Shown here: piece by piece, positions 2,222 to 38,125 of the stretch
Layout of the letters: every line of letters starts with the position of its first letter
Numbering within the stretch: position 1 is the stretch's first letter
Source: Brevinematales bacterium
GTDB lineage: Bacteria; Spirochaetota; Brevinematia; Brevinematales; Thermospiraceae
Reading direction: 5' to 3'
DNA length: 64,000 bases
NCBI GenBank assembly: GCA_013177995.1
Contig: JABLXN010000016.1
Span: 62,001-126,000 of the forward strand
Position numbers and translations under genes: made by a program
The notes under the pieces: model-generated
Told to the model about the DNA's origin: nothing
What the model saw: the letters and a program-made list of their open reading frames with translations, nothing else
Databases searched by the model: none

Positions 2222-2288
2222 AAAAAAGGCTGTCCCTTCTCCTCTTTCTGTCCATATCCAGACTATCAAAAAACGAGAAGAGACAGCC
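2222..2288 (-). terminator. Rho-independent terminator of the V-ATPase operon
   Basis: On the minus strand, 22 nt after the ntpK stop, GGCTGTCTCTTCTC (2288-2275) can pair with GAGAAGGGACAGCC (2241-2228) with one mismatch, followed immediately by six T residues. The loop is long, about 33 nt. Its position fits the end of the ATPase transcript. Confidence 0.7.
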
Positions 2289-2310
2289 ACTAAAAAATCA
2301 AAATAAGAAC

Positions 2311-2769
2311 TTATCCCATCAACCCTGTCATAAGGATAGCTGCCACAAGGGCAAGAATAGCATAGAACTCAGGAAGAGCCGCCATCACAAGACCGGGCAC
2401 AAGGGTGTTATGGCCTGATCCAATAGCCGCCGCACTGGAGGCACAGACCTTTCCCTGATAAATAGCCGACACAAGACCAGCAAGTCCCACCATAATCCCG
2501 GCCCCAAGCATCACCGCACCCTGCAAAAGGGTAAGTTCAGGCTTCATATAACTCTGATAGAAGAAGAAACTCACAAACCCATAAATACCCTGGGTTGAGG
2601 GAAGCACCGAAGCCACCAGAAGCGTACCAAAGGCATCCGGACGCTTCTTGAGAGCCCCAATAGCCGTACTTCCACTGATCACCAGCCCCATAGCTGAACC
2701 CACACCGGGCATACCCACCATAAGTCCAAGCCCAATACCGCCTAAAATCAAAGCCAATGCGTTTTCCAT
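2311..2769 (-). CDS. ntpK: V-type ATPase subunit K (proteolipid c-ring subunit)
   Basis: This is the membrane rotor subunit that carries the transported ion. At 152 residues it is a fused double hairpin with four membrane segments, the usual size for bacterial V-type K. In the first hairpin LPSTQGIYGF places Leu56, Thr59 and Gln60. The second hairpin has Gln105 in SAIYQGKV and Glu133 in ALPEFYAIL. These align with Leu61, Thr64, Gln65, Gln110 and Glu139, the Na+ ligands known from Enterococcus hirae NtpK. The coupling ion is therefore predicted to be Na+. It is the last gene of the operon, 3 nt after ntpI, and is followed by a terminator. Confidence 0.93.
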   Translation of the reverse strand: MENALALILGGIGLGLMVGMPGVGSAMGLVISGSTAIGALKKRPDAFGTLLVASVLPSTQGIYGFVSFFFYQSYMKPELTLLQGAVMLGAGIMVGLAGLVSAIYQGKVCASSAAAIGSGHNTLVPGLVMAALPEFYAILALVAAILMTGLMG

Positions 2770-2772
2770 AGT

Positions 2773-4632
2773 CTACTCCTTTTGCATATATTCTCTATGT
2801 CGAAACGGTTCATACCGTCTCCCACCACCCTGATAGTCCATGGTCTTGAAAAACTCAAGAAAGGTCAATCGTAGTGGATGAACAAAAGCGCCTAAAAGAG
2901 CAAGCGCTAAATTCAGTCCATGCCCTATCACCAGAATCAGACCCATTCCCACCCAGTTGAGAATCCCCGGGTTATCCCCCCGTGCCATCAGAGCAATCTG
3001 GTTGAAGGCACTCCCGAGCATCCCCCCGGAAAGACCAAGGGCAAAGAGTCGAATATACGAAAGAATATCCCCCGGAAGACCTGTAACCGTCCCATACAAC
3101 TCCCATAGTCCAAGAAGAGGTCGCACCCAGAGTTTATTCTGGGGATTATTGAAAAGAAGGATAAGTCCAACACCAATCACCGCCATCACACTCCCCACCA
3201 TGACGGCATTGGGTATAGCTTCCACCCACGCCCTCACAGCAAATGGCCCGATAGAAAATCCCGCCGGAGAAAGCGCCGCAATCATGGCTATGAGTACACC
3301 CCCCATCAAGAGAAGCGTTCCCAACGGATGAAGGGCATACACTACCCCATCCATACGGATCTTGTTTATGATCTTCACTATCAAACCGATAGACAACTGA
3401 AGAACTCCTAACATCAAAGAAAAGGCCATGGCATCATTGATATTAGCAAAAAAAACCGTCCCTTTCCATTCGCCGGGCAGAATACCGGTGAGCTGCACCC
3501 CAAAGAAGCTATTGAGTACCCATCCAGCCACAATAGTCATCACACTAAACACCACTCCAAGCCAGGCAAGTCTTCTGGCCGATCCCTTCGTGAGAAACAC
3601 AAGCGCAAGGGTAATAAGAAGCATAATAGCCCCATACCCCACATCCGCCATACAGAGCCCAAAAAAGAGCGCAAAAAACGGGGCCACTAACGGCGTAGGA
3701 TCAATCTCATAATACGAAGGCACACTATGAAGGGTGAGAATAGGTTCAAAAAGACGACTGAAAGGGTTATTTCTGAGAAGCACCGGCACATTCTCTCCCG
3801 GTTTTGGATCTTCAATGAGATAGACTATGGTATAAGACTGAAGAAGCGCCTCAATCTTTGGCCGTTTCTTTTTTGGAAACCATCCCTGCAGGAAACGCAC
3901 TGTTCCCTCAGCCTCCGGGAGAGCTGATACCTCAGCCAGCCTGTAGGCCAACCTATCCTCAATGAGGAGTTTTTCCCTCTCTAAAAGATCCATCATCGGG
4001 ACAAGGTGTTCCAGTTCAAGGAACCACTCAGAAAGCGTCGCCTCTCTGATGGCAATCTCCTTTTCTAAGGCCTCCATAGAAATCGGGCGATACGCCACCT
4101 CATAGGGTTTGAGCGCCTCAATCTCCTCCCCCATTGGGGTAATAGCCACAAAATACACCGTTTTCCCCACCTGGTTGATCTTCTCTACAGGGAGGTCGGT
4201 GGCAAGCCTCTTGTAGGCTGACTCAAGGGCCATATAAAAGCGAATAGAAAGCCCAAGAGATTCAAGTTTGGCTTTGTCTTCTGAACCAAACTCTCCCCAC
4301 ACAGAAATCTCTTTGAGCGTCCTTTCCATACTCTGAATCTCTGCCTGAAGCTGCTGGATGGCATTTTGCTTTTCTACCACCCAACGAGCAACCTCAAGGG
4401 GAACATCCTGAATAACCTCTTTCTGAAGCTTTTTCTCCTCTTTGACATACCCTTTCAAAATCCGCAGGGCATCATCAAGAAGTTTCTTCTCCGCCTCAAG
4501 ACGCTTGATCTCCTCATCATCTGTGGTCATGGTTTCAATATGCACAAGCCCAAGGTTTTGCAAATCCTGAAGGAGTTTCTCCATTTCCTGATGGTAAATG
4601 AAACAGGAGAGTTTCTGCATTTTCTCAATCAT
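2773..4632 (-). CDS. ntpI: V-type ATPase subunit I (membrane stator subunit, a-subunit type)
   Basis: Subunit I anchors the peripheral stalk and forms the ion half-channels beside the K ring. The soluble N-terminal half (about residues 1-290) is helical with coiled-coil character. The C-terminal half has about seven or eight hydrophobic segments, starting near FFALFFGLCMADVGYGAI, a family-typical stretch. I place the start at the ATG at 4630-4632, which begins 1 nt after the ntpD stop and has GGAGG about 6 nt upstream, giving 619 residues. A longer frame would begin at a TTG inside ntpD without a good ribosome binding site. Confidence 0.92.
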   Translation of the reverse strand: MIEKMQKLSCFIYHQEMEKLLQDLQNLGLVHIETMTTDDEEIKRLEAEKKLLDDALRILKGYVKEEKKLQKEVIQDVPLEVARWVVEKQNAIQQLQAEIQSMERTLKEISVWGEFGSEDKAKLESLGLSIRFYMALESAYKRLATDLPVEKINQVGKTVYFVAITPMGEEIEALKPYEVAYRPISMEALEKEIAIREATLSEWFLELEHLVPMMDLLEREKLLIEDRLAYRLAEVSALPEAEGTVRFLQGWFPKKKRPKIEALLQSYTIVYLIEDPKPGENVPVLLRNNPFSRLFEPILTLHSVPSYYEIDPTPLVAPFFALFFGLCMADVGYGAIMLLITLALVFLTKGSARRLAWLGVVFSVMTIVAGWVLNSFFGVQLTGILPGEWKGTVFFANINDAMAFSLMLGVLQLSIGLIVKIINKIRMDGVVYALHPLGTLLLMGGVLIAMIAALSPAGFSIGPFAVRAWVEAIPNAVMVGSVMAVIGVGLILLFNNPQNKLWVRPLLGLWELYGTVTGLPGDILSYIRLFALGLSGGMLGSAFNQIALMARGDNPGILNWVGMGLILVIGHGLNLALALLGAFVHPLRLTFLEFFKTMDYQGGGRRYEPFRHREYMQKE

Positions 4633-26684: not shown

Positions 26685-26718
26685 ATAAAAAACCTCTCGC
26701 GACCATCTTGCCCTTGCT

Positions 26719-26759
26719 ATGTTGTTCCACATTCATCCAGAATGGTTATCTTCACACAA
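26719..26759 (-). repeat. 41-bp dispersed element upstream of the hybrid kinase (candidate operator)
   Basis: Read on the minus strand this element begins TTGTGTGAAGATAAC and ends TGTGGAACAACAT. It matches 52785-52825 at 36 of 41 positions, all mismatches falling in the middle. Both copies have the same orientation to the downstream gene and nearly the same distance from its -35 box. Confidence 0.75.
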
Positions 26760-26835
26760 AAACTGAATACTTGTTCGACCATCTTTTCTCTTTCAGTTTT
26801 GGGCTACTTTTTTTACCCATTTTCCTTCTTCTACG

Positions 26836-27346
26836 AAGCGCTCCCGCGCGGGGCAAAAGGGGCTCCGCCCCTTTTGAAAACCCCGTTTTCGCCCCTGCAA
26901 CGGTTTCTGGGAACCCTCTTTTTTCTCTTATCTTGCAGGCTGGAAGCTCTCTCTTTTCCAACCACCCAAAAAAATCTGTACCCCACCGGGCCGCTTTTGC
27001 GGTTGTGTACTCTTGACCTTGTGGCGGGAAAACCCTTCCGAAGTGAGGGCACAGGAGGTGCCCGAGGCGACATCTTCTGTTGCTTTTCCCAAAAAGCCCA
27101 CCGAAGCGTAGCCGCGGGGACCCCGCCTGAGCGGGGAATCGGCGAAGCGAGGTGGGCGCTATACTTCCGAAGTCAGGAGGACGAGTTGATGTCGCCCACG
27201 GAGGAAGGACTTTCCCTGAAAAAAGAAGGCGTCTCTCTCGTCCGCAAAAGCGGCCCATTGTTCGTCCGAGGCGCATGCGTAGCATGCGACGAGGACAACT
27301 CCATCCTGTAGCCGCTCAAGGACAGACGTCCTATCTGACCTTGAGC
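26836..27346. repeat. Dyad-rich, gene-free region at the end of the giant gene
   Basis: This stretch is crowded with inverted repeats. Small ones include AAAAGGGGCTCCGCCCCTTTT-type (26857-26877), GAAAACCCCGTTTTC, CCGCTTTTGCGG, GCGCATGCGTAGCATGCG near 27271 and GCTCAAGG/CCTTGAGC (27314-27346). Four larger pairs are nested around about 27128: GGGCCGCTTTTGCGG (26988) with CCGCAAAAGCGGCCC (27242), GGCGACATC (27066) with GATGTCGCC (27188), GCCCACC (27096) with GGTGGGC (27151), and CCCCGC with GCGGGG. From 26641 to 27172 I see no gene beyond these and the kinase control region. The last about 57 codons of the giant gene overlap this structured DNA. Confidence 0.7.
27091..27157 (-). terminator. Probable terminator of the giant gene
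   Basis: On the minus strand GCCCACC and GGTGGGC enclose an inner CCCCGC-TCAG-GCGGGG hairpin, and the outer stem is followed by TTTTT. It starts 15 nt after the stop codon at 27173. Confidence 0.65.
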
Positions 27347-30300
27347 TTCCTCGCCACCTTTCACTCCGCTGGCTATCACACCACCCCAGCCTCCGTTCCC
27401 GATCCAGGTATCAATGGCAGAACCTGCTATTGTCGTCCCCCACTCCGCCCAGTCCTTCGCATCCATCTTCAGATCAAGCTTCCCGTTCTCCACCCGAAGA
27501 CTCCTCTGCCCCAGATTCACCATCGAATTTGCAGCCCACTTCACCCATTTGTCGGCTCCACTCAGCCCTACCAGACCTGCCACACCACTCAACCCGGCAG
27601 ACAGCATCTCATATCCCCACTGATCCATCGATATGTTCCCCACCATCGCATTCAGAGAACTATTCATCATCTGCATCCCCGTCGCCGCTACAAGACATCC
27701 AATCGCATTCAATCCCGGCACAAAATTGATCGCTATCAACCCTATATTAAACAAACTCATATTCCCAAGAAAGGTCAACGTCCCCTCAAAAAAGTTACTG
27801 CAATCCCCCTCCCCATCATTATCCGCATCCGTGTCCCACAAACCCTTGTTCCAGAAAAACTGCTTCGCCTTCGATTCGCCAATCCCCTTCCTCACCTCCA
27901 TGATCGTCAGCGCTTCCGTGAGACGATACAGCTCAGGCTTATCATAACTCCCCCCAACCGTCTTCGGCTTCGCATTCTCCCTCGTGTATCCCTTCCCGCT
28001 CTCCCCTCCATGCTCCTTGAAATTCTTCGGCGGCTCCTTGCCGGATGGTACCTCATACCTGTTGCTCCCGAGGTGTTCCTCCGCCATCCGCTTCATGTGC
28101 TTCTCCATCTGCTTCTGCATCGCCACCGTCGCCATCTCCGAAATACCCTTCAGCGCTAAAAATCCAGCCCGTGGATCTGCCCCCATCGTCTTCTCCACAC
28201 GGCCCAAATCTCCCTCCACATCCCATTCCACACGGTTCTTCCACCAGTCCGTGTACAGCCAGTACGCATGCACATACTGATCCTCCTTCTCATCACCAAA
28301 CAGCGTCGAATCTATCAATACACCTTCCCTCACATACTCATCCCCTCTCTTCACAAATCCACTCCCGATAAACATCTCCTCCATGTTCTTCGCTATCTCT
28401 TCGTCCTGCTGTCTCATCACACGGTTCATCTCTTCCTTCGTCTCCTCTATCATCGCCCTCAGTCTCTCGACGCTCACCTCCACAGACACCGCTTCATATC
28501 CCCTCACCACCGCATCAAATTCCTTCCCGAGACTCGCATCCCTCACCCTCGACGCTGATAACGTCTCCATCACATACTTCGTCGACGCAAGTCTCACCCT
28601 CTCAAGCATCCGCCCAAAATAACTATCATACAGATGGCTATTCTCCTCTATCACATTGCTCATCATCTGCTTCACCACCCCGGGCTGGCACGCCACCATA
28701 TCAAGCTCCACCCCGCTCTTCTCCTTCAGCTCATCCACCGCACTCCTCAAACCTGCCAGCAACCCCTCAAGCTCCACTCCAACAAGTTCATTCACCCGTG
28801 CTACCGCCCCCTGCTCAATATTTGCCGTCACATTCGATATCCATTCCTCCTTCGCCACTATCACATTGCTCCACATCCGCCCCCACGCCTCTTCCCCAGC
28901 CGTCCTCTTCTCCTCATACCCGCGTCTCCACTCATTCCATCTCCCTGCATACTCTCGAAGCCCCCTGTCCCAGTTCAATTCCCCTCTCGCTCTCACCGTC
29001 GTCACCCATTCCATCCACTCCTGCTTCTGCTTCTCAAAATCATAATCCTCTAACCCCCACAAAAACCTCTGCATCTCCCCTTCCTGATTCTTCGTCTTCC
29101 CGTAACTCTCCTTCACCACCTCAAGCCCATCCCCCATCGCCTGCCTGTACCCCTCCGTCTTCATCCATCCAGTCCTGCCTCCCATCATCCTCATCGCTTC
29201 CCTCACCCCTTCTGCCTCAACCTCCTTCACCAGTTTCTCATCCCCAAGCTTCTGCGCAAGCTCATCCCGAAGCCCACTACACCTTTTCTCATACGCTATC
29301 CTGAACGTCTTCAAAAACTTCTCCATATTCACTCGATACGCCACCTTCTTCACCCCGCTTGCCGCATCCAAATACTCCCCGTACTCCACCACATCCCCAC
29401 CATATTGCCTCAATAGCTCCACTAACCCCTCATCCACACCCACATTCGAGATATACCCCCACATCGTCGTGTTCGAAAGCCCCTCCAGCACCCCACGCCA
29501 CCCCTCTGCCGTCAGCTCACCATACACCTTCCCCCCATTCGTCACCACCTTCCCTATCCATCTCGCTTCATTCGTCCCCCCAACCACTACCTCACAGTAC
29601 TTGTAATACTCCTCCGCCGCCGCACTAAATAACCGGTACTTCGACGCTATGTCCTTCTCCTTATCCTGCGTCCCCCAGTAGAGCCTCTGCTGCGACTCCA
29701 TCGCCACAAAAGCATTGTGAATCTGTGTCTGCGCCTCACTCGAAACAGCCCAGTGAACACCCCACGCCACCGCCGCAGCCGCCGCAAGCACCCCTACCAC
29801 ACCCCACAGACCAGGAACAAAAATTGCTATCGCTACCATCGCTGCCACAGCCGCTGACGCCGCAGCCGCCGCACCCCACGTCTCACTCATCGCCCTCTGA
29901 CCAACCCGATCCGTCACCTCCCTCTTCTTCTCCGCTCCTATCAGATTCGCTGCCCTGTCCACCCACTCAATACCGCTCTCCCCCTTCATCATCTCATACC
30001 CTTCTCTCCAGAAATTCCCTACCTTACACTCCTCCTCCGAAAGAGTAATCTTATCATTATACAATGCCTCTTTCCCTTTATAACTGTAGCTGTAACACCA
30101 TTTCTCCACATCCAGCCACTTATACACCCCCTCACTCGCATTGGTCCATACAGCCACCACCTCCCCGCTCCCGCTCTCCGTCACCGTCACAAAATTCGTC
30201 AGATACGCATTCCTCACCACCACACGATATTTCTCATCCAGCTCAAGAAGCTCAAAATTGGTGACATACACCTCCTTCACATTCGTTACAAAGCCCCCTC

Positions 30301-33300
30301 CCCCACTATACCTCTCACTCACCACCACACTACCCTTCAGCTCCCCAAGCCTTGCCTCCGCCTCTCCCCGTTCAAAAATACCAAACGCAGACAGCACCCT
30401 CTTCGCCACTACCTCATTCCCGTACGCCCCCTTCACCTTCTCAAATATCCCTCTTACATCACCCAGATCCCCCTTCACCGCCTGCAACAACTCCTTCGTC
30501 CTGTCTATGACACTATACCCCTCCTTCGCCATCCGGCACGCCACCTCCACAAGACTCTCATCATACGCCCCAATATACGCCCCAATACTATTCGTTACCT
30601 CATACAGCTTCTTCTCATACTCCTGCCTCACCACTCCCGCTTTCCGCCCCTGCTCCTCAAGCGCACTCAGAATACTCACCCTCTCACGATATTCCTCCAC
30701 ATACTGCTTCCTCAATGCCTCCGCTTCTTCCCACTTCTTCCTTTCCTCTAACCTCTCCTTCACCGCCTCCTCATACCTCACAAGCGCATTCGTGTACCCG
30801 CTGTACGCCCTCTGATACGCTTCCCTCGCATCCACCTTGTTCGTCACAAGCTTCCCTTCCATCCCCTCACTCGCATTCGTCACACTCTCCACTACATACG
30901 GCGTGCTCGCCCAGTTGTACACCGCAAGCACCTTCCGGTACTCCATATCCCGCCTGTCCACTTCCCCTTTCGCCGCCTTCACCGCCGCCATCACCTCATA
31001 ATACCCCTTCACCAGCCCCCCATACCTCTCTAACTCATCATAATACCGCCCCAAAAGTACCTGATTGCTCCTCTCAAGCTCCTCATAGACTCGCCACTTC
31101 TCATTCACATTCGAGACCGCCTTCGCCTCATTCCCCTTATACTCCCTCACGAAAACATTATACAACCCGAGATCCCTCTCCCTCTCTCTCATCGCCTCCT
31201 CATACCCCATCACCTCTCCCCCGTATTGCATCAATACCCCATCCCGTTCCACAAGATTCTTCACCTTCACGTCCGCTTCCCCAAGCCAGCCAACCACATC
31301 CCCTCCTCCACACCGGTACCACTCCACCTGCCCAACCATCTCCTCTAACACACCCCTCAACCTCTCCTTCCTCGACTCAACCTCCTGTGCCATATTAAAT
31401 CCCTCATCCCCCTCCCGGTACCCAAGTACCCCGTTCGTCTCACTCCACTTCTCCTCTCCTCTCCCATTTGTCTCCACCACCACATTCGTCGTATTCCTCT
31501 CCACCACACCAGCATAGTCCCTTATCGTCTTCCCCTTCCTCTCTTCCTCTTCCTTCAGCCGCTTCACCACCCCCTCCAGAATCTCTATCCTCCCGCCAGG
31601 CCCCTCAACCTCTCTCTGCCATTTCCCCATCTTCTCTATCAACCCGGCCCGCAGTCCCATCACCACCTTCCCCTCCACTACAAGCCTGCTCATCACCTCA
31701 AGCCCTCCCTTCACCATCTCATACCACGTCACCCCATCTATCATCTCTCCACCCGTCAGCCGGTATACCATCTTCACAATACTATCACCCTCTCCCCCTA
31801 TCCCCACCGCATTCGTACAATACCCCCTGTACTTCCGATAGGACTCCACCAGACCATCACTCCCTTCTCCCTCCACAAGCCCCCTGTACATACTATAAAG
31901 ACTGTCCCCCACCACTACCTCATTCGTGATCCCGAGCCCAATACCACTTGCCCACTCAAGCAATACACCCCTGTACACCCCCACCACATTCGTCCTCTCC
32001 TCATCACTCATATCAAGACCTTCCACCACACCCCACAGCACATTATCCACTACATTCGTCCTCTCCACCCCGCTCAACTTCACCCAGTTGCTCAGCGCTT
32101 CCTCCTCCGTCTTCACCACTCCATTCGTCCTCAATACCTCAGCCCTCAATGCCCCCTGCAAATACCACTGCCCCCACTCACTCACCCACACTCCCTGATT
32201 ATACCATCCCCCGGCCAGAAGCCCTATATACTCCTTCACCTCTCCCTCTGACAGTACCTCCTCAACTCCCTTCACCCTCTCATATACCCCCATGATACTT
32301 ATCCACCCCTGAGAACTTATCTCTTCCTCAACCTCCTCCTTCACCATCTCAAGCGCTTCCCGCTTCAATACCCCCTTCACCACTTCCTCTATCTCTTCAT
32401 CCTTCACCCACTCCACAACCCCACCAGGCCGCTTCTTCACCTCTTCCCTCACCCTCTCCACCGCTTTGCCGTCCCATATCACCCCCATCTCCCTTATAAC
32501 CCCCTCAACCACTCCCCCAACCATCACCCGCCTGAGCGCATCCTTCTCCCCCTCTTCCACCACATCATTCGTCATCACTATCCCATACGCCCCCCTATAA
32601 TCCCCCTCCCCAAGCTTCTTCACTACCTCCCCCGCACTCACCACCTTCCCGAGTAACCTCTCCCTCTCTTCACAAAGCTCACCAAGACCATTCGTCTCAA
32701 AAGCCCCCATCCCCAGTATCGCAAGCTCCTTCACCACCCCATACACCCCACCAAAAACCCTCAGATACTCATTCGTTACCACCTTCCCGATATCTCCCCT
32801 ACTCTCTATCACCCCCTTCAGCTCCTCAATCGCCCCCTTCACCCCATGATACCTCTTCACCATCCCGCCTATCTCCCCCTTCACCCCTATCACCTCCCTC
32901 GCCATCCGCCTTATCCCCCCTTCCATCGCACCCCACCACTTCATCACTATACCACTCACCCCTCCCCCATTCAATACAGCCCACACCCGCCCAAAATCAA
33001 GCTCCTTCTCCTCACAATACTCCCCGACGTCCCCCTTCGCCCCGTATTCACTCCCGCTCTCCATCCCATCTAACCACTCCTCCCATCCATCAAGCCACAC
33101 AAGCTCCTCCCCAACCCCCTCTATCACCCCCATCACCCCCTGATACCCGCTGAAAATATCCCCATCCTTCCCGTTCAACGCCCCCTCAATCAACTCCTTC
33201 ACCACCCCCCGCACCCCGGCACTCACCTTATGAGAATTCATCCATTCATCAAACATATCCCCCCTCAATACCACATTCGTCACTTTCCCCACCACATTCG

Positions 33301-35821
33301 TCCCCACATACCCCCCTGTATTCCCCATTACTGCCGTCCAGAAATCCCTCAATACATTCGTCACCTCACCATAAAAACGTGCCCTCACCCCCTTCACCAC
33401 TTCATCCTCTTCCACTCCGCCTGACTCATCCCACTCCACCTCTCCATTCGTCCCGTATCCCTTCATCCAGCTTATATACCCCTCAACCCCTTTCACCATC
33501 TCCACACCCTCCCGATACATCCCCTCTACCCCCGCTGCCCATAACACATACTCCCCCTCATTCGTTATCTCAAGTACCTTCTCCACCTCCTCACCATACA
33601 CACCAAACTGCCCCTTCCGCTCACTTACATAACCCTTCACCGCATCCAACCCATCCCCCACTGTCTCCACTACCCCCTTCACCCCCTCAAGCCCATTCGT
33701 CATACCACCATACACCCCCACCACATTCGTATACACACCCCAGTACATCATCTCAAGCCCAAGCCCATCCACCTCAACCACATTCGACCCATACGCCCTC
33801 CTCGCCCTCCAGTACCCCTCATACGCCTGCCCGTAACCCAAAAACGCCCGCTTCATCATCTCACCTATCACCCCCACACTCCTCTCATCCGTCACCAGCA
33901 CCCACACCTTCATCGCTTCCTCATACGCCTCCCTCGCCTTCTCCATCTCCCCCCTCAGTGACTCCACCTCAGCCCACACATTCGTCACACCATCATACCC
34001 CTCCTTCATCTTCTTCTCCCGCTCCCTCAACTCCCCCTCAAGCCTCTCAAGCTCCGCCCTCGCATTCGATAACGCCACCTCCGCAGCCCTTAACCTCCCC
34101 TCCGTCTCCTCCGCACTCTCACGACCCCCCTCGTTCGTCGCATACCTCACTACCTCCCCCGCTATCTCCACCTGATTGCTCCAGTACCATAACTCCCTCT
34201 CCCGCTTCCACAACAAAAGCTCCCTGCTACTGCGAAAATATACATCCGCCAGCCCCTCTACACCCCCACTCAACTCAAAAATACCATACCCAACCTCGTT
34301 CGTAAACATCTCCCTTATCAGCCGCCCCTCCATCATCACCACCATGTTCGAAAAATTTACCCGATTCGATACAAGCACCGCCTTCATCCCCAACAAATTC
34401 GTCAGCTCCTTCGCTACCTTCTCCAGTACACCCCTCCTCCCTATCACCACATTGCTCATATTCACCATCTGCGCCTTCGCATCATTCATCAGCCCATAAT
34501 AATCCATCATCTTACTATAAAAATAATTCGTCCCGCTATTATTCGTTAAAGCATTACTATACATCATTGTATAATAGTTATAGCTACTTGACAAATTCGA
34601 TAAAGACATCACCGCCCCTTCATACTCCCTCTGCGCCCCTTCTACCTCAGCCCTCTTCCTCTCTATCCGTCCATCCAGAAACTTCTCACTCTCCTCTATC
34701 TCCCCAAGCGTTACACTCGACTTCATACTCACCTGCTGCATCTGCAAAAGATAATCCCCATAATTCACCACCGCACGACCAATCTCCTCCTCAAGCTCCT
34801 TTGCCGCCTCCTCCAGCCCCAAACCCCTCTCCTTCGACTTCTTCTCCCATTCCTTCACCCCGGCCCTGATCCTCTCCTCCATCCCCTTCGTCCACTCGTA
34901 CCTCTTCTTCACAAGATACCGGTACCCATCCTTCCAGTACCTCTCCCCCTCCTCAAAATTCTCCCTCGCCACCTTCATCCATTCGTCCATCCCCTCCCTC
35001 ATCTTCTCAAATAACTCATCCCACTTCTTCACCCCCTCAATATACCTCCCCCTCACCTCATCCCGCCACTTCAAAAACTCCTCCTCACTCATCCCCTCCA
35101 CCTCAGGACACTCCTCAAGCGCCTCCTCAAGCTTCCTCACCTCCTCCCTTACATAATACTCCCCACTCCCCCTCTCCGCATACCACCTCAACGAATCATC
35201 ATCCAGCAACGCCTTCCTCACAAATATCCCTTCCTCCCTCTTCCTCACATCCACCAGCAACCTCAAATACCCTTCCATCACCCCACTCACCTCTAACTCC
35301 ACCTCCCCGCTCCCAAGATACCTCCCGGGCCAGCTGTTCGTTACTCCCCATACGTCCAGCCCACCCCACTCGTTCGTTAAACTACAAAAAGCCTCCCCAA
35401 CAACTCTGTACATCCGCCGAATACTCCCCTCTATGTCCCACCTGTCTATCCCATTCGTCTTCACCATCCCCTCTACACGCTCAACCCACCGACTCACCAT
35501 CACCCTCTTCTTCACCTCCTCCCTCACCCTCCACCTTAAACCCCTTTCCACTATCCCCTCTATCTCCCTCCTCGCTATCTCCACCACATCATTCGTCAGC
35601 ACTACCTCAACCCCTATCCCGTACCTCATCGCATAGTTCGTTACCCATACCCCGAGATACCTCGCCTCTATCTCCTTTACCCCGGCCTCGTTCGTGATCC
35701 ATACCCCATGCCTCACCCCCCTCTCTATCTCATACCTGTCTACCCCATACTCCTTCAAAATGTCTCCACTTACCCACCCCTGCATCACAAAAAATACTAA
35801 CCCAATAACCGCCTTCTTCAT
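27173..35821 (-). CDS. Giant secreted coiled-coil protein (about 2880 residues), unknown function
   Basis: A signal peptide (MKKAVIGLVFFVMQGWVSG) is followed by a mostly helical, charged chain with many predicted coiled coils. Ser/Thr-Asn dipeptides, often inside VTN or TNV, occur more than 40 times. An Ala-rich hydrophobic segment lies at about 1980-2030 and a second hydrophobic region at about 2675-2735, before DKWVKWAANSM. No enzyme motif is recognised. The plan (signal, huge coiled body, hydrophobic patches near the C-terminus) recalls the very long TIGR04388-type proteins of Leptospira, but I cannot verify homology. The coding strand is G-rich and C-poor, unlike its neighbours, using AGG, GGG, GTG and GAG heavily. 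The last about 57 codons differ in base use and lie in dyad-rich DNA, so the C-terminus may be acquired or truncated. RBS AAGGAGGAG; the ATG is at 35819-35821. Confidence 0.8.
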   Translation of the reverse strand: MKKAVIGLVFFVMQGWVSGDILKEYGVDRYEIERGVRHGVWITNEAGVKEIEARYLGVWVTNYAMRYGIGVEVVLTNDVVEIARREIEGIVERGLRWRVREEVKKRVMVSRWVERVEGMVKTNGIDRWDIEGSIRRMYRVVGEAFCSLTNEWGGLDVWGVTNSWPGRYLGSGEVELEVSGVMEGYLRLLVDVRKREEGIFVRKALLDDDSLRWYAERGSGEYYVREEVRKLEEALEECPEVEGMSEEEFLKWRDEVRGRYIEGVKKWDELFEKMREGMDEWMKVARENFEEGERYWKDGYRYLVKKRYEWTKGMEERIRAGVKEWEKKSKERGLGLEEAAKELEEEIGRAVVNYGDYLLQMQQVSMKSSVTLGEIEESEKFLDGRIERKRAEVEGAQREYEGAVMSLSNLSSSYNYYTMMYSNALTNNSGTNYFYSKMMDYYGLMNDAKAQMVNMSNVVIGRRGVLEKVAKELTNLLGMKAVLVSNRVNFSNMVVMMEGRLIREMFTNEVGYGIFELSGGVEGLADVYFRSSRELLLWKRERELWYWSNQVEIAGEVVRYATNEGGRESAEETEGRLRAAEVALSNARAELERLEGELREREKKMKEGYDGVTNVWAEVESLRGEMEKAREAYEEAMKVWVLVTDERSVGVIGEMMKRAFLGYGQAYEGYWRARRAYGSNVVEVDGLGLEMMYWGVYTNVVGVYGGMTNGLEGVKGVVETVGDGLDAVKGYVSERKGQFGVYGEEVEKVLEITNEGEYVLWAAGVEGMYREGVEMVKGVEGYISWMKGYGTNGEVEWDESGGVEEDEVVKGVRARFYGEVTNVLRDFWTAVMGNTGGYVGTNVVGKVTNVVLRGDMFDEWMNSHKVSAGVRGVVKELIEGALNGKDGDIFSGYQGVMGVIEGVGEELVWLDGWEEWLDGMESGSEYGAKGDVGEYCEEKELDFGRVWAVLNGGGVSGIVMKWWGAMEGGIRRMAREVIGVKGEIGGMVKRYHGVKGAIEELKGVIESRGDIGKVVTNEYLRVFGGVYGVVKELAILGMGAFETNGLGELCEERERLLGKVVSAGEVVKKLGEGDYRGAYGIVMTNDVVEEGEKDALRRVMVGGVVEGVIREMGVIWDGKAVERVREEVKKRPGGVVEWVKDEEIEEVVKGVLKREALEMVKEEVEEEISSQGWISIMGVYERVKGVEEVLSEGEVKEYIGLLAGGWYNQGVWVSEWGQWYLQGALRAEVLRTNGVVKTEEEALSNWVKLSGVERTNVVDNVLWGVVEGLDMSDEERTNVVGVYRGVLLEWASGIGLGITNEVVVGDSLYSMYRGLVEGEGSDGLVESYRKYRGYCTNAVGIGGEGDSIVKMVYRLTGGEMIDGVTWYEMVKGGLEVMSRLVVEGKVVMGLRAGLIEKMGKWQREVEGPGGRIEILEGVVKRLKEEEERKGKTIRDYAGVVERNTTNVVVETNGRGEEKWSETNGVLGYREGDEGFNMAQEVESRKERLRGVLEEMVGQVEWYRCGGGDVVGWLGEADVKVKNLVERDGVLMQYGGEVMGYEEAMRERERDLGLYNVFVREYKGNEAKAVSNVNEKWRVYEELERSNQVLLGRYYDELERYGGLVKGYYEVMAAVKAAKGEVDRRDMEYRKVLAVYNWASTPYVVESVTNASEGMEGKLVTNKVDAREAYQRAYSGYTNALVRYEEAVKERLEERKKWEEAEALRKQYVEEYRERVSILSALEEQGRKAGVVRQEYEKKLYEVTNSIGAYIGAYDESLVEVACRMAKEGYSVIDRTKELLQAVKGDLGDVRGIFEKVKGAYGNEVVAKRVLSAFGIFERGEAEARLGELKGSVVVSERYSGGGGFVTNVKEVYVTNFELLELDEKYRVVVRNAYLTNFVTVTESGSGEVVAVWTNASEGVYKWLDVEKWCYSYSYKGKEALYNDKITLSEEECKVGNFWREGYEMMKGESGIEWVDRAANLIGAEKKREVTDRVGQRAMSETWGAAAAASAAVAAMVAIAIFVPGLWGVVGVLAAAAAVAWGVHWAVSSEAQTQIHNAFVAMESQQRLYWGTQDKEKDIASKYRLFSAAAEEYYKYCEVVVGGTNEARWIGKVVTNGGKVYGELTAEGWRGVLEGLSNTTMWGYISNVGVDEGLVELLRQYGGDVVEYGEYLDAASGVKKVAYRVNMEKFLKTFRIAYEKRCSGLRDELAQKLGDEKLVKEVEAEGVREAMRMMGGRTGWMKTEGYRQAMGDGLEVVKESYGKTKNQEGEMQRFLWGLEDYDFEKQKQEWMEWVTTVRARGELNWDRGLREYAGRWNEWRRGYEEKRTAGEEAWGRMWSNVIVAKEEWISNVTANIEQGAVARVNELVGVELEGLLAGLRSAVDELKEKSGVELDMVACQPGVVKQMMSNVIEENSHLYDSYFGRMLERVRLASTKYVMETLSASRVRDASLGKEFDAVVRGYEAVSVEVSVERLRAMIEETKEEMNRVMRQQDEEIAKNMEEMFIGSGFVKRGDEYVREGVLIDSTLFGDEKEDQYVHAYWLYTDWWKNRVEWDVEGDLGRVEKTMGADPRAGFLALKGISEMATVAMQKQMEKHMKRMAEEHLGSNRYEVPSGKEPPKNFKEHGGESGKGYTRENAKPKTVGGSYDKPELYRLTEALTIMEVRKGIGESKAKQFFWNKGLWDTDADNDGEGDCSNFFEGTLTFLGNMSLFNIGLIAINFVPGLNAIGCLVAATGMQMMNSSLNAMVGNISMDQWGYEMLSAGLSGVAGLVGLSGADKWVKWAANSMVNLGQRSLRVENGKLDLKMDAKDWAEWGTTIAGSAIDTWIGNGGWGGVIASGVKGGEEAQGQIGRLSLSGYRMELSSSHATHAPRTNNGPLLRTRETPSFFRESPSSVGDINSSS

Positions 35822-35864
35822 ATCTCTATCTCCTCCTTACTTTTTCTCCTCTCACATCTATAAC

Positions 35865-35910
35865 AAAAAAAGCCATAGCCACATGAGTCCTCGCCCATGT
35901 GACCATGGCT
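35865..35910 (-). terminator. Intrinsic terminator inside the leader of the giant gene (candidate attenuator)
   Basis: On the minus strand AGCCATGGTCACATG pairs with CATGTGGCTATGGCT over 15 bp. Two pairs are G-U wobbles, so the stem is complete only in minus-strand RNA. It has a 10-nt loop and is followed by a run of seven T residues. It lies 44 nt upstream of the giant gene's start codon and downstream of both promoters. Confidence 0.75.
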
Positions 35911-36119
35911 TTCCTCTTCGTCCCTTCACTACCCCATGCCCATACCACGTCCGCACCATACACTTTCTCACTCATACCGCACCCCAAACCCGCTCTATCC
36001 TTTCATCCAGCCCCCACAAAACATTCCTCTCTCTCCGCTCATTCCCCCCTCACCACAAAAACCCTAAACCCAATACCCCCCTCTTCACCATCCTCTTCTT
36101 CACTCCTTTTTCTCCTAAA

Positions 36120-36148
36120 ATTATACCACCTCTCCCTCACCCTGTCAA
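36120..36148 (-). promoter_or_regulatory. Consensus promoter P2 of the giant gene
   Basis: On the minus strand perfect hexamers TTGACA (36148-36143) and TATAAT (36125-36120) are separated by 17 bp. The predicted leader is about 290 nt. Between 35822 and 36280 I see only promoters, this leader and its hairpin; no convincing gene. Confidence 0.9.
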
Positions 36149-36192
36149 CTCATCCACGCTTCTCCTGTGAAAAATTTTCCCTTTCGCCCCCT

Positions 36193-36221
36193 ATTTTACC
36201 ATAGTCCCTCCTCCATGTCAA
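36193..36221 (-). promoter_or_regulatory. Upstream promoter P1 of the giant gene
   Basis: On the minus strand TTGACA (36221-36216) and TAAAAT (36198-36193) are 17 bp apart, 73 bp upstream of P2 in the same direction. Confidence 0.75.
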
Positions 36222-36280
36222 TGGGCATTTGTCACAAGTTTGGGGGAAGTTTCTCTCTTCTTCCCCAAAAGAACGTCTTT

Positions 36281-37036
36281 CTACTCCCTTCCCATGACCC
36301 TATTCGTTACCGGTTCCACAGGAAACCAGAGAGGCCCCACACTATTTTTCTCTTCCACCTGAAATTCGTTCTCCTGAATCACCACATAGTAGTACGGTCC
36401 CCCAACAGGGGGCATATCCTCATACCAGGTTTCCTTCACACGAGCGATCGGACGACTGGTACGAAGAACACCTATCTGAGGCGGAACACTGAGACGATAC
36501 ACCGCAAACTCCTGCCCCTTATACCCATCAAAAAACCACGAAAGCATGACCCGATCTCTAAAGACATTCCCCTTTACCTGAAAAAGAATAGGAGAAGGCG
36601 TCTCTTCTTCAGTCGAAACCTCTTTCACCTGAAAAGAAACCTCCTCTTTCTTTTCTGGCACATAGGCCACGACCGTCGCATTCAGGACAGGCAAAATATC
36701 TTCATCCGTATAGTTTGTTTTGACAGGCAAAATAGCCACATAGGGGAAGTTCAAAACGCTCAAGAAACTCCCATAACGATAAAGATTCTGTTGTGGTACA
36801 CCCTTTACCTTTTGCTGAAAAATAATCTCAGAGGTTTTCACCAACTCTGCTGAAAGAATGGGAACCTTCGCCCCAAACAGAACAAACTCCCCCTCCTCGA
36901 CGTTCGCCATCCATGAAACCCATACACCCCCATTCGTGGGAACTAAAGAAATACTTGTCGTATAGACATCCTCTCCGTATAATAAAAGAGTGCAGAATGC
37001 ACAAAAAATGCCGATAAAAGGAAAAGAGAACCTCAT
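36281..37036 (-). CDS. Exported protein with fibronectin type III-like domains
   Basis: I place the start at the ATG at 37034-37036, where a clear signal peptide begins (MRFSFPFIGIFCAFCTLLLYG); the open frame extends further upstream over the dgt gene and that part is unlikely to be real. The mature protein is about 230 residues. Two halves look like FN3 or similar beta-sandwich domains: the first with VPTNGGVWVSWMA, the second with DRVMLSWFFDGYKGQEFAVYRLS and GGPYYYVVIQENE. It faces dgt across a 36-bp gap and lies upstream of the giant gene on the same strand, but tandem promoters intervene. Function unknown. No good Shine-Dalgarno site is seen. Confidence 0.65.
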   Translation of the reverse strand: MRFSFPFIGIFCAFCTLLLYGEDVYTTSISLVPTNGGVWVSWMANVEEGEFVLFGAKVPILSAELVKTSEIIFQQKVKGVPQQNLYRYGSFLSVLNFPYVAILPVKTNYTDEDILPVLNATVVAYVPEKKEEVSFQVKEVSTEEETPSPILFQVKGNVFRDRVMLSWFFDGYKGQEFAVYRLSVPPQIGVLRTSRPIARVKETWYEDMPPVGGPYYYVVIQENEFQVEEKNSVGPLWFPVEPVTNRVMGRE

Positions 37037-37072
37037 GGATATAGTATCGTATTTACCCGAGCAGAAACTTGA

Positions 37073-38125
37073 ATGGAACGACGTATGAGAGAACTTCACG
37101 AACAGTTCGAACAAGAGTATCTTTCCCCTTACGGAACCAAAAGTGCCCAAACCAGGGGGAGAAAAATACCCGAAACTCCCGATGAGATACGAACAGAGTT
37201 TATGCGGGACAGAGACCGTATTATCCACAGTGAATCCTTTCGTCGGCTCAAACACAAAACCCAGGTTTTTCTTTCCCCTGCCAGTGATACCTTTCGTACC
37301 CGGCTCACCCATACCCTTGAGGTATCCCAGATAGCCCGCACCATCGCAAGGTCCCTGCGAGTCAACGAAGACCTCACAGAAGCCATCGCCTTAGGCCATG
37401 ATGTGGGACACACCCCTTTCGGACATGCAGGAGAACGCATCATCCAGAAACATCTCGACCCCCACTTCAAACATGCCACCCATAGTGTTCGTGTCCTCAG
37501 CACCATTGAAAAAAACGGTCAGGGGCTTAACCTCACCACAGAGGTCCTGGACGGTATTGCCAAACACTCCAAAACAGGCCAGAATCCCATTCTCTGGTCA
37601 GACAAAGACAAACCCCTTACCATCGAGGGACAAATTGTACGCCTCGCCGACATCATCGCCTATGTAAACCATGACCTTCAGGATGCCCTCTCGTCCGGTC
37701 TTCTTTCTCCCCATGAGATCCCCAGGGAGATTCTCTCCACCCTCGGAGAAAGCCACGCTGCTCGCATCAATACCCTCGTTCGGGATGTTATCCTCCATTC
37801 GCAGCAAAGCGCTGAAATACGAATCAGCGAAAACATCCTGACCGCCCTCCACAATTTGCGTGCCTTTCTCTTCGACAAGGTATACACCCACCCAGAACTC
37901 CAGAAAGAAATGACCAAAGCAGAAAATATCCTCTTGGCCCTCTTAGAACACTTCGACAAACTCATTGACAGGGGAGACCCCTTTCCCTCTCTGGTGCATA
38001 TTCCCGTTTCTAGTAGCAAAAAACAAACCCTCATTGATTGCCTTGCCTTCATGACAGACACAGAAGCCATGCGAATTTTCTACCAGATCTACATTCCCAA
38101 ATCCTTCAGCTGGGGGACCCGATGA
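37073..38125 (+). CDS. dgt: Deoxyguanosinetriphosphate triphosphohydrolase-like protein
   Basis: HD-superfamily enzymes of this group cleave dNTPs to deoxynucleosides and triphosphate. The 350-residue protein has RIIHSESFRRLKHKTQVFL, then the metal ligands in RLTHTLEVSQIAR and LGHDVGHTPFGHAGE, and the Asp in VRLADIIAYVNHDLQDA. This is the short dgt type 2 form. An ATG at 37085 is an alternative start. It begins a four-gene unit in which each gene overlaps the next. Confidence 0.92.
   Translation: MERRMRELHEQFEQEYLSPYGTKSAQTRGRKIPETPDEIRTEFMRDRDRIIHSESFRRLKHKTQVFLSPASDTFRTRLTHTLEVSQIARTIARSLRVNEDLTEAIALGHDVGHTPFGHAGERIIQKHLDPHFKHATHSVRVLSTIEKNGQGLNLTTEVLDGIAKHSKTGQNPILWSDKDKPLTIEGQIVRLADIIAYVNHDLQDALSSGLLSPHEIPREILSTLGESHAARINTLVRDVILHSQQSAEIRISENILTALHNLRAFLFDKVYTHPELQKEMTKAENILLALLEHFDKLIDRGDPFPSLVHIPVSSSKKQTLIDCLAFMTDTEAMRIFYQIYIPKSFSWGTR

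Follow-up and report, generated by a model that had tools for sequence, protein, structure and literature searches.

A giant G-rich gene of a Brevinematales bacterium as the probable trunk of a polymorphic toxin from a family spread over Spirochaetota

In contact-dependent inhibition (CDI), CdiA is a giant stick with an exchangeable C-terminal domain. Phage tape-measure proteins are long and helical, and have hydrophobic patches and hydrolase ends. According to Zhang et al. (2012, PMC3482391), polymorphic toxin systems, including CdiA and Rhs, are characterised by a long secreted carrier, a variable C-terminal domain, an AT-rich partner directly downstream and displaced orphan cassettes. Here we analyse a giant gene in a 64,000-nucleotide stretch of the genome of a Brevinematales bacterium (assembly GCA_013177995.1, contig JABLXN010000016.1, positions 62,001 to 126,000; hereafter the window). 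The gene has an ATG start and occupies 27173-35821 of the minus strand. It is probably the trunk of a giant polymorphic toxin, belonging to a family spread over Spirochaetota, from which the C-terminal cassette was removed by recombination at a dispersed repeat.

The initial annotation had described one frame of about 2880 codons with a signal peptide, two hydrophobic patches and no recognised domain, and all of this was recovered. The frame encodes 2882 residues, including a repeat-encoded tail, on a strand that had been left unstated. The signal peptide, MKKAVIGLVFFVMQGWVSG, was read directly from the translation, where both hydrophobic patches were also located, and the Pfam and NCBIfam matches of the window protein were all below threshold. 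The parts of the gene are as follows.

27359..35821, minus strand: native coding sequence for residues 1-2821 of the giant secreted protein, with its 3′ limit at the repeat boundary
35762..35821, minus strand: predicted signal peptide, approximately residues 1-20, from the translation
34571..35281, minus strand: conserved N-terminal coil (residues 181-417) in which Trp recurs at intervals of 14-15 residues, from the profile, predicted all-helical
33902..34285, minus strand: second conserved segment, residues 513-640, from comparison with relatives
29702..29854, minus strand: Ala/Val/Gly-rich hydrophobic stretch, residues ~1990-2040, from the translation
28808..28987, minus strand: weaker second Trp coil (residues 2279-2338), found at an i-Evalue of 0.1 in the window protein
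27815..27838, minus strand: motif WDTDADND, residues 2662-2669, in a form common to L084, L085, L094 and L161
27563..27754, minus strand: conserved hydrophobic Gly-rich region, residues 2690-2753, before the cassette boundary, from translation and alignment
26717..27359, no strand assigned: composite dispersed repeat in place of a C-terminal cassette, its first part in frame as residues 2822-2882, from own-genome matches

Tryptophan is invariant at a spacing of about 14-15 residues in the conserved N-terminal part. A structure model of this part, a segment check proposed in the initial annotation, was all-helical with a mean predicted local distance difference test score (pLDDT) of 61, and no PDB entry matched it at E up to 0.001, the best hit having an E of 0.45. 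The second Trp-coil copy, near the end of the body, was far clearer in several relatives (1e-7 to 1e-9) than the 0.1 seen in the window protein.

No relative was found when a genome collection was scanned with the window protein itself as query. A protein search of 60 genomes gave matches in seven, own genome counted. The distant matches were colinear with the body of the window protein and included open frames of about 3250 amino acids and more. Profiles built from these colinear distant relatives were searched against 392 Spirochaetota genomes. At E up to 0.001, and again counting the own genome, the N-terminal profile detected 78 of them and the C-terminal profile 69, of which the weakest matches may be due to coiled-coil chance. 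Relatives were found in Treponema socranskii subsp. paredis ATCC 35535 and Treponema sp. Marseille-Q4130, among others. Neither profile matched two other genomes of the own genus, presumably Thermospira.

We read 38 relative loci; in five the contig stops before the 3′ end of the giant, and in the other 33 this end is visible. In 25 of the 33, the giant is followed after no more than 70 nucleotides by a gene in the same direction whose N-terminus is hydrophobic or resembles that of a lipoprotein and whose GC content is below that of the giant's body (22 from this reading of the loci, with L084, L088 and L091 added from other readings). The last 450 nucleotides of the giant were AT-richer than its body in 26 of the 33. 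Among seven partner candidates scanned, four contained PF25302 (F5/8 type C-like) and one had leucine-rich repeat models.

C-termini are exchanged on near-identical bodies. L089 and L090 were 88% identical to residue 2633 and divergent beyond it. Downstream of L089 and its partner stands an orphan segment 97% identical to the C-terminus of L090, followed by a gene that shares 91% identity with the partner of L090. L163 and L165 were 91% identical and differed only in their last 80-100 residues. Displaced cassettes of C-terminus and partner were found downstream at L089, L087 and L094; the orphan after the L087 giant was 79% identical to that giant over 628 residues and then different. A junction motif, YDSSGDYWKL..DG, lay 351-370 residues from the C-terminus in nine of the 11 full-length giants that bear it; in the remaining two the distance was 293 or 296. 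It was also present in the L087 orphan, and was absent from 27 further giants read, including the window protein. When 29 C-terminal pieces were searched with Pfam, three exceeded the curated cut-off, with C39_2 in L075 and L078 and SLT with LysM in L156. Weak matches were obtained to NlpC/P60 (L076), M23 (L086) and YkuD (L084). Many of the ends without a Pfam match carry Cys-His or SxGC motifs that, as we read them, may resemble Cys-His peptidases or L,D-transpeptidases. Since the C-termini vary on near-identical bodies, and orphan cassettes, partner genes and murein-hydrolase ends accompany them, this is a polymorphic-toxin architecture.

The window copy ends where this architecture would place its cassette. 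Its homology to L094a, a relative from the same order, stops at 2820/416 (window protein/L094a), and the exchangeable module common to L094a and the orphan L094b starts at residue 413 of L094a, so the window copy breaks off no more than four residues from the module start. From codon 2822 to the stop, the frame falls inside the dispersed repeat. The native protein therefore comprises 2821 residues, followed by 61 that the repeat encodes. No partner gene lies directly downstream, and the last 450 nucleotides show no AT shift. Because homology ends at the module boundary and both partner and AT shift are missing, the cassette appears to be gone and the repeat to stand in its place; the window copy is probably a disarmed one. 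In L084, L085 and L161 the WDxDxDND motif lies 424-427 residues before the junction, and adding this spacing and about 365 further residues suggests that an intact window protein would be some 3450 amino acids long. The repeat itself is abundant. A query of 821 bases had 92 matches in the own genome, itself counted, and the window protein had 19 further matches there, all to its last ~26-48 residues. The repeat family is composite and intergenic, and its modules are differently arranged at dozens of places in the own genome.

It is unlikely, though it deserves some weight, that the window copy is complete, a surface stick or adhesin ending at the Gly-rich region, with the repeat as an innocuous adjoining element that adds a short tail. 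Its 2821 codons are open and uniform in composition, its promoter is of consensus type, and some relatives (e.g. L161, L167, L170 and L171) likewise lack a recognised partner. However, these four still bear C-terminal domains of their own, and the window protein stops at the cassette boundary, about 630 residues short of the length that the spacing in L084, L085 and L161 predicts.

We suggest that the toxin family works as follows. The giant protein would be exported by Sec through its signal peptide and would form a long helical rod within the cell envelope or on its surface. In intact members, a C-terminal domain that can be swapped, in many cases a murein hydrolase, would attack the cell wall of a neighbour, and the producer would be shielded by a secreted or lipoprotein partner from the gene immediately downstream. 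In the window copy, recombination at the dispersed repeat would have taken out the C-terminal domain together with the partner, leaving behind the 2821-residue trunk with its 61 repeat-encoded residues, still under a near-consensus tandem promoter. The family, its architecture, the exchange and orphaning of cassettes and the repeat boundary are seen in the sequences; that the ends are toxic, that the partners confer immunity, that the giants cross the outer membrane and what the trunk does now are predictions of this scheme. The present trunk most likely does nothing toxic; perhaps an adhesive or surface role remains to it. The initial annotation had proposed a secreted coiled-coil protein that is costly to make and takes part in interactions, which fits a toxin trunk, and had likened it to Leptospira proteins, a likeness that fails (see below).

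Several observations weigh against the polymorphic-toxin interpretation. Identity of the relatives to the window protein is low, at 17-29% over aligned segments, and no close homologue of the window copy was found. Eight of the 33 loci (L079, L086, L160, L161, L162, L167, L170 and L171) lack a recognisable partner, L160 being masked near its end. No relevant Pfam match was obtained for 23 of the 29 C-terminal pieces. A model of one L,D-transpeptidase-like C-terminus was uninformative (pLDDT 34), and its profile had no match in PDB. No exporter for the outer membrane was identified. The giants could also be structural or wall-remodelling periplasmic proteins of the cell itself, using their hydrolase ends in growth or morphology. 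The helical body and the signal peptide suit such a role, and the C39_2, SLT and LysM families have housekeeping functions as well. We consider it improbable, as the family is patchily distributed (78 of 392 genomes, with the two same-genus genomes lacking it) and combines C-termini swapped on near-identical bodies with orphan cassettes and AT-rich partners.

The spirochaete family resembles the described polymorphic toxins in its conserved carrier with variable ends (L089/L090 and L163/L165), in the partner directly downstream in 25 of 33 relatives and in the orphan cassettes at L089, L087 and L094; the window copy lacks both C-terminal domain and partner. It departs from them in having a helical coil with periodic Trp, unmatched in Pfam, as its carrier, murein hydrolases as its recognised ends, and partners with a periplasmic or lipoprotein-like appearance. 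It shares with CdiA/CdiB the giant stick and exchangeable end, but no CdiB-like partner was recognised beside the window gene, whose neighbours were not all searched by family, and a Pfam scan of the window protein detected no two-partner secretion (TPS), other secretion or filament domain. As in phage tape-measure proteins, a long helical protein combines hydrophobic patches with hydrolase ends; unlike them, the giant has a signal peptide and no adjoining phage genes. A phage or plasmid origin was rejected, since searches for phage and plasmid sequences, part of them made with Treponema relatives instead of the window protein, gave no matches. A tblastn search of 50,697 phage records had no match, and PADLOC recognised nothing in three proteins. 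Residues 262-394 of the window protein weakly matched PHROG 22272 (4080 positions, function unknown) at a similar position, a match that was reproduced in none of three relatives.

LA_3725 of Leptospira may be a member of the TIGR04388 (Lepto_longest) group. It is a large protein with a pre-toxin HINT domain, according to PMC4751964. Like the giants, these are very long spirochaete proteins with a hydrophobic Gly/Ala-rich part and a possible toxin end. The kinship to TIGR04388 proposed in the initial annotation was nevertheless not supported, there being no significant sequence or profile relation to the giant family. The TIGR04388 hidden Markov model (HMM) had no match in the own genome and matched one of 60 relatives; the window protein gave no hit at E up to 1. 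When two family alignments were compared with the TIGR04388 protein so matched by hhalign, the probabilities were 1.6 and 0.1. The first of these alignments was gap-poor over 82 columns with an E of 0.031, and a very remote link may exist.

Upstream of the start codon lies a promoter region with the following features.

36096..36263, minus strand: promoter module, with 88% identity across 173 alignment columns to its counterpart before the second toxin-like gene of the genome
36193..36221, minus strand: promoter-like TTGACA-17-TAAAAT, 11 of 12 sigma-70-like consensus bases
36120..36148, minus strand: promoter-like TTGACA-17-TATAAT, 12 of 12 sigma-70-like consensus bases
35822..36113, minus strand: predicted untranslated leader, G-rich and C-poor, from the predicted transcription start
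35868..35913, minus strand: terminator-like hairpin of 20 pairs with a T run just before the start codon, a possible attenuator, from the sequence

An Rfam search gave no match for the hairpin. The own genome contains six occurrences of the module. In four of them the contig breaks off, so that additional paralogues may have escaped assembly: contigs C10 and C41 begin with exactly 127 bases of the module, C54 ends inside it and C33 ends 46 bases past it, which suggests collapsed paralogues. There is a slim chance of an assembly artefact, in which the contig was misjoined at either the dispersed or the promoter repeat and the giant gene truly continues elsewhere. The assembly is a draft of 57 contigs, four of which have ends at the promoter module, and the repeat exists in dozens of copies. 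Against this, the gene body directly abuts the repeat at 27359, so a repeat copy follows the gene whatever comes next, and the C-terminal profile found no second place in the own genome. An rRNA promoter was excluded as source of the module by the lack of a match before the two 16S genes of genome G002, and is also disfavoured because the gene start that follows the module copy on C33 is the same as at the C56 locus described below. No 16S rRNA gene was found in the own draft assembly. A motif ending in the -35 box, TTGTGACAAATGCC(C/T)ATTGACA, stands at 36216-36237 of the window. It also precedes genes at L111, L187, L190 and L191 and, in G002, at L175 and L184, some of them with signal-like N-termini. 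Its recurrence in the genus makes a regulon possible.

The second toxin-like gene shares the promoter module.

G000:C56:94434-97061 (L106:14434-17061), minus strand: second toxin-like gene

It combines a coiled coil, a Ser-rich linker, LysM (6.8e-9), a hydrophobic segment and a variable-looking end. The gene that follows (C56:93973-94437) is AT-rich, with a GC content of 0.37, and overlaps it by a few nucleotides. Near neighbours of the window gene encode a hybrid histidine kinase and an HD-domain protein. The gene at 36281-37312 was rejected as an operon member, as its orthologue adjoins the HD gene in genome G001 (L153) without a giant.

The coding strand of the giant gene is, as first noted, strikingly rich in G (0.45) and poor in C (0.09). 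Its G-over-C skew of 0.655 (GC3 skew 0.80) exceeded that of every one of 291 other open reading frames of at least 200 amino acids, sampled from the window plus 400 kb of this genome (mean 0.069, standard deviation 0.156, maximum 0.462). The claim that it is unlike all other genes on either strand is true in degree; the minus strand of the region is G-rich throughout, and the second toxin-like gene, the second most skewed of the sampled frames, reaches 0.46. The extension of the bias into the leader was confirmed (36113-35822, G 0.44, C 0.06), and skew was much lower upstream of ~36200. When synonymous codons were redrawn at leading-strand usage, the protein sequence alone still yielded a skew of 0.49. 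Most of the skew therefore comes from amino-acid composition and the rest from codon choice. It is not solely a codon effect, and the predicted untranslated leader is biased as well. The native message folds at -25 kcal/mol per 150 nucleotides, against -32 to -34 in six redrawn versions; other genes fold more strongly than the giant's message, at -36. Codons of the form NNY hold the host leading-strand C/T ratio while NNR and four-fold codons shift to G, so C-to-T deamination was rejected as the cause. Purine loading as a thermophile trait was considered and is at most a suggestive explanation of the skew.

The same bias was seen in the giant (L091) of G023, which we assume to be Spirochaeta thermophila, and in the gene after it (2276-3511), and not in three giants of other genomes. 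The L091 frame, with its extreme G bias, apparently lacks the N-terminal part. The composition had been called alien; as a sign of recent import this was unsupported, with the G023 giant equally biased and the own second toxin-like gene less so. Import from a donor of such composition is very improbable: the giant is absent from the two same-genus genomes, where orthologues of the flanking genes lie ~49 kb and >400 kb apart, but NNY codons keep the host C/T ratio, the promoter module is a multi-copy element of the host, the second toxin-like gene of the host shows the same tendency and no donor was found.

Contact-dependent antagonism is hardly described in spirochaetes, as far as the literature was searched. 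Searches on spirochaete polymorphic toxins, contact inhibition and TIGR04388 found no description of the giant family, with subscription journals mostly outside their coverage. More broadly, and only tentatively, we propose that giant contact toxins (open frames of 2200-5100 amino acids) occur across the phylum, with a Trp-periodic helical stick, interchangeable murein-cutting ends and periplasmic protectors. In this lineage, they might also have a duplicated tandem promoter module, repeat recombination that swaps or removes ends, and transcripts kept weakly folded by a G-rich, C-poor composition from the transcription start. The skew from the predicted transcription start would offer a clean case for asking why a transcript becomes C-poor, and the window copy is an example of a locus emptied while its 2821-codon trunk stays open. 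Each pair of C-terminal domain and partner is small and can be expressed on its own, which makes the mechanism testable. If true, giant carriers in oral treponemes (Treponema socranskii) and other lineages would give contact-dependent antagonism in spirochaetes a concrete mechanism.
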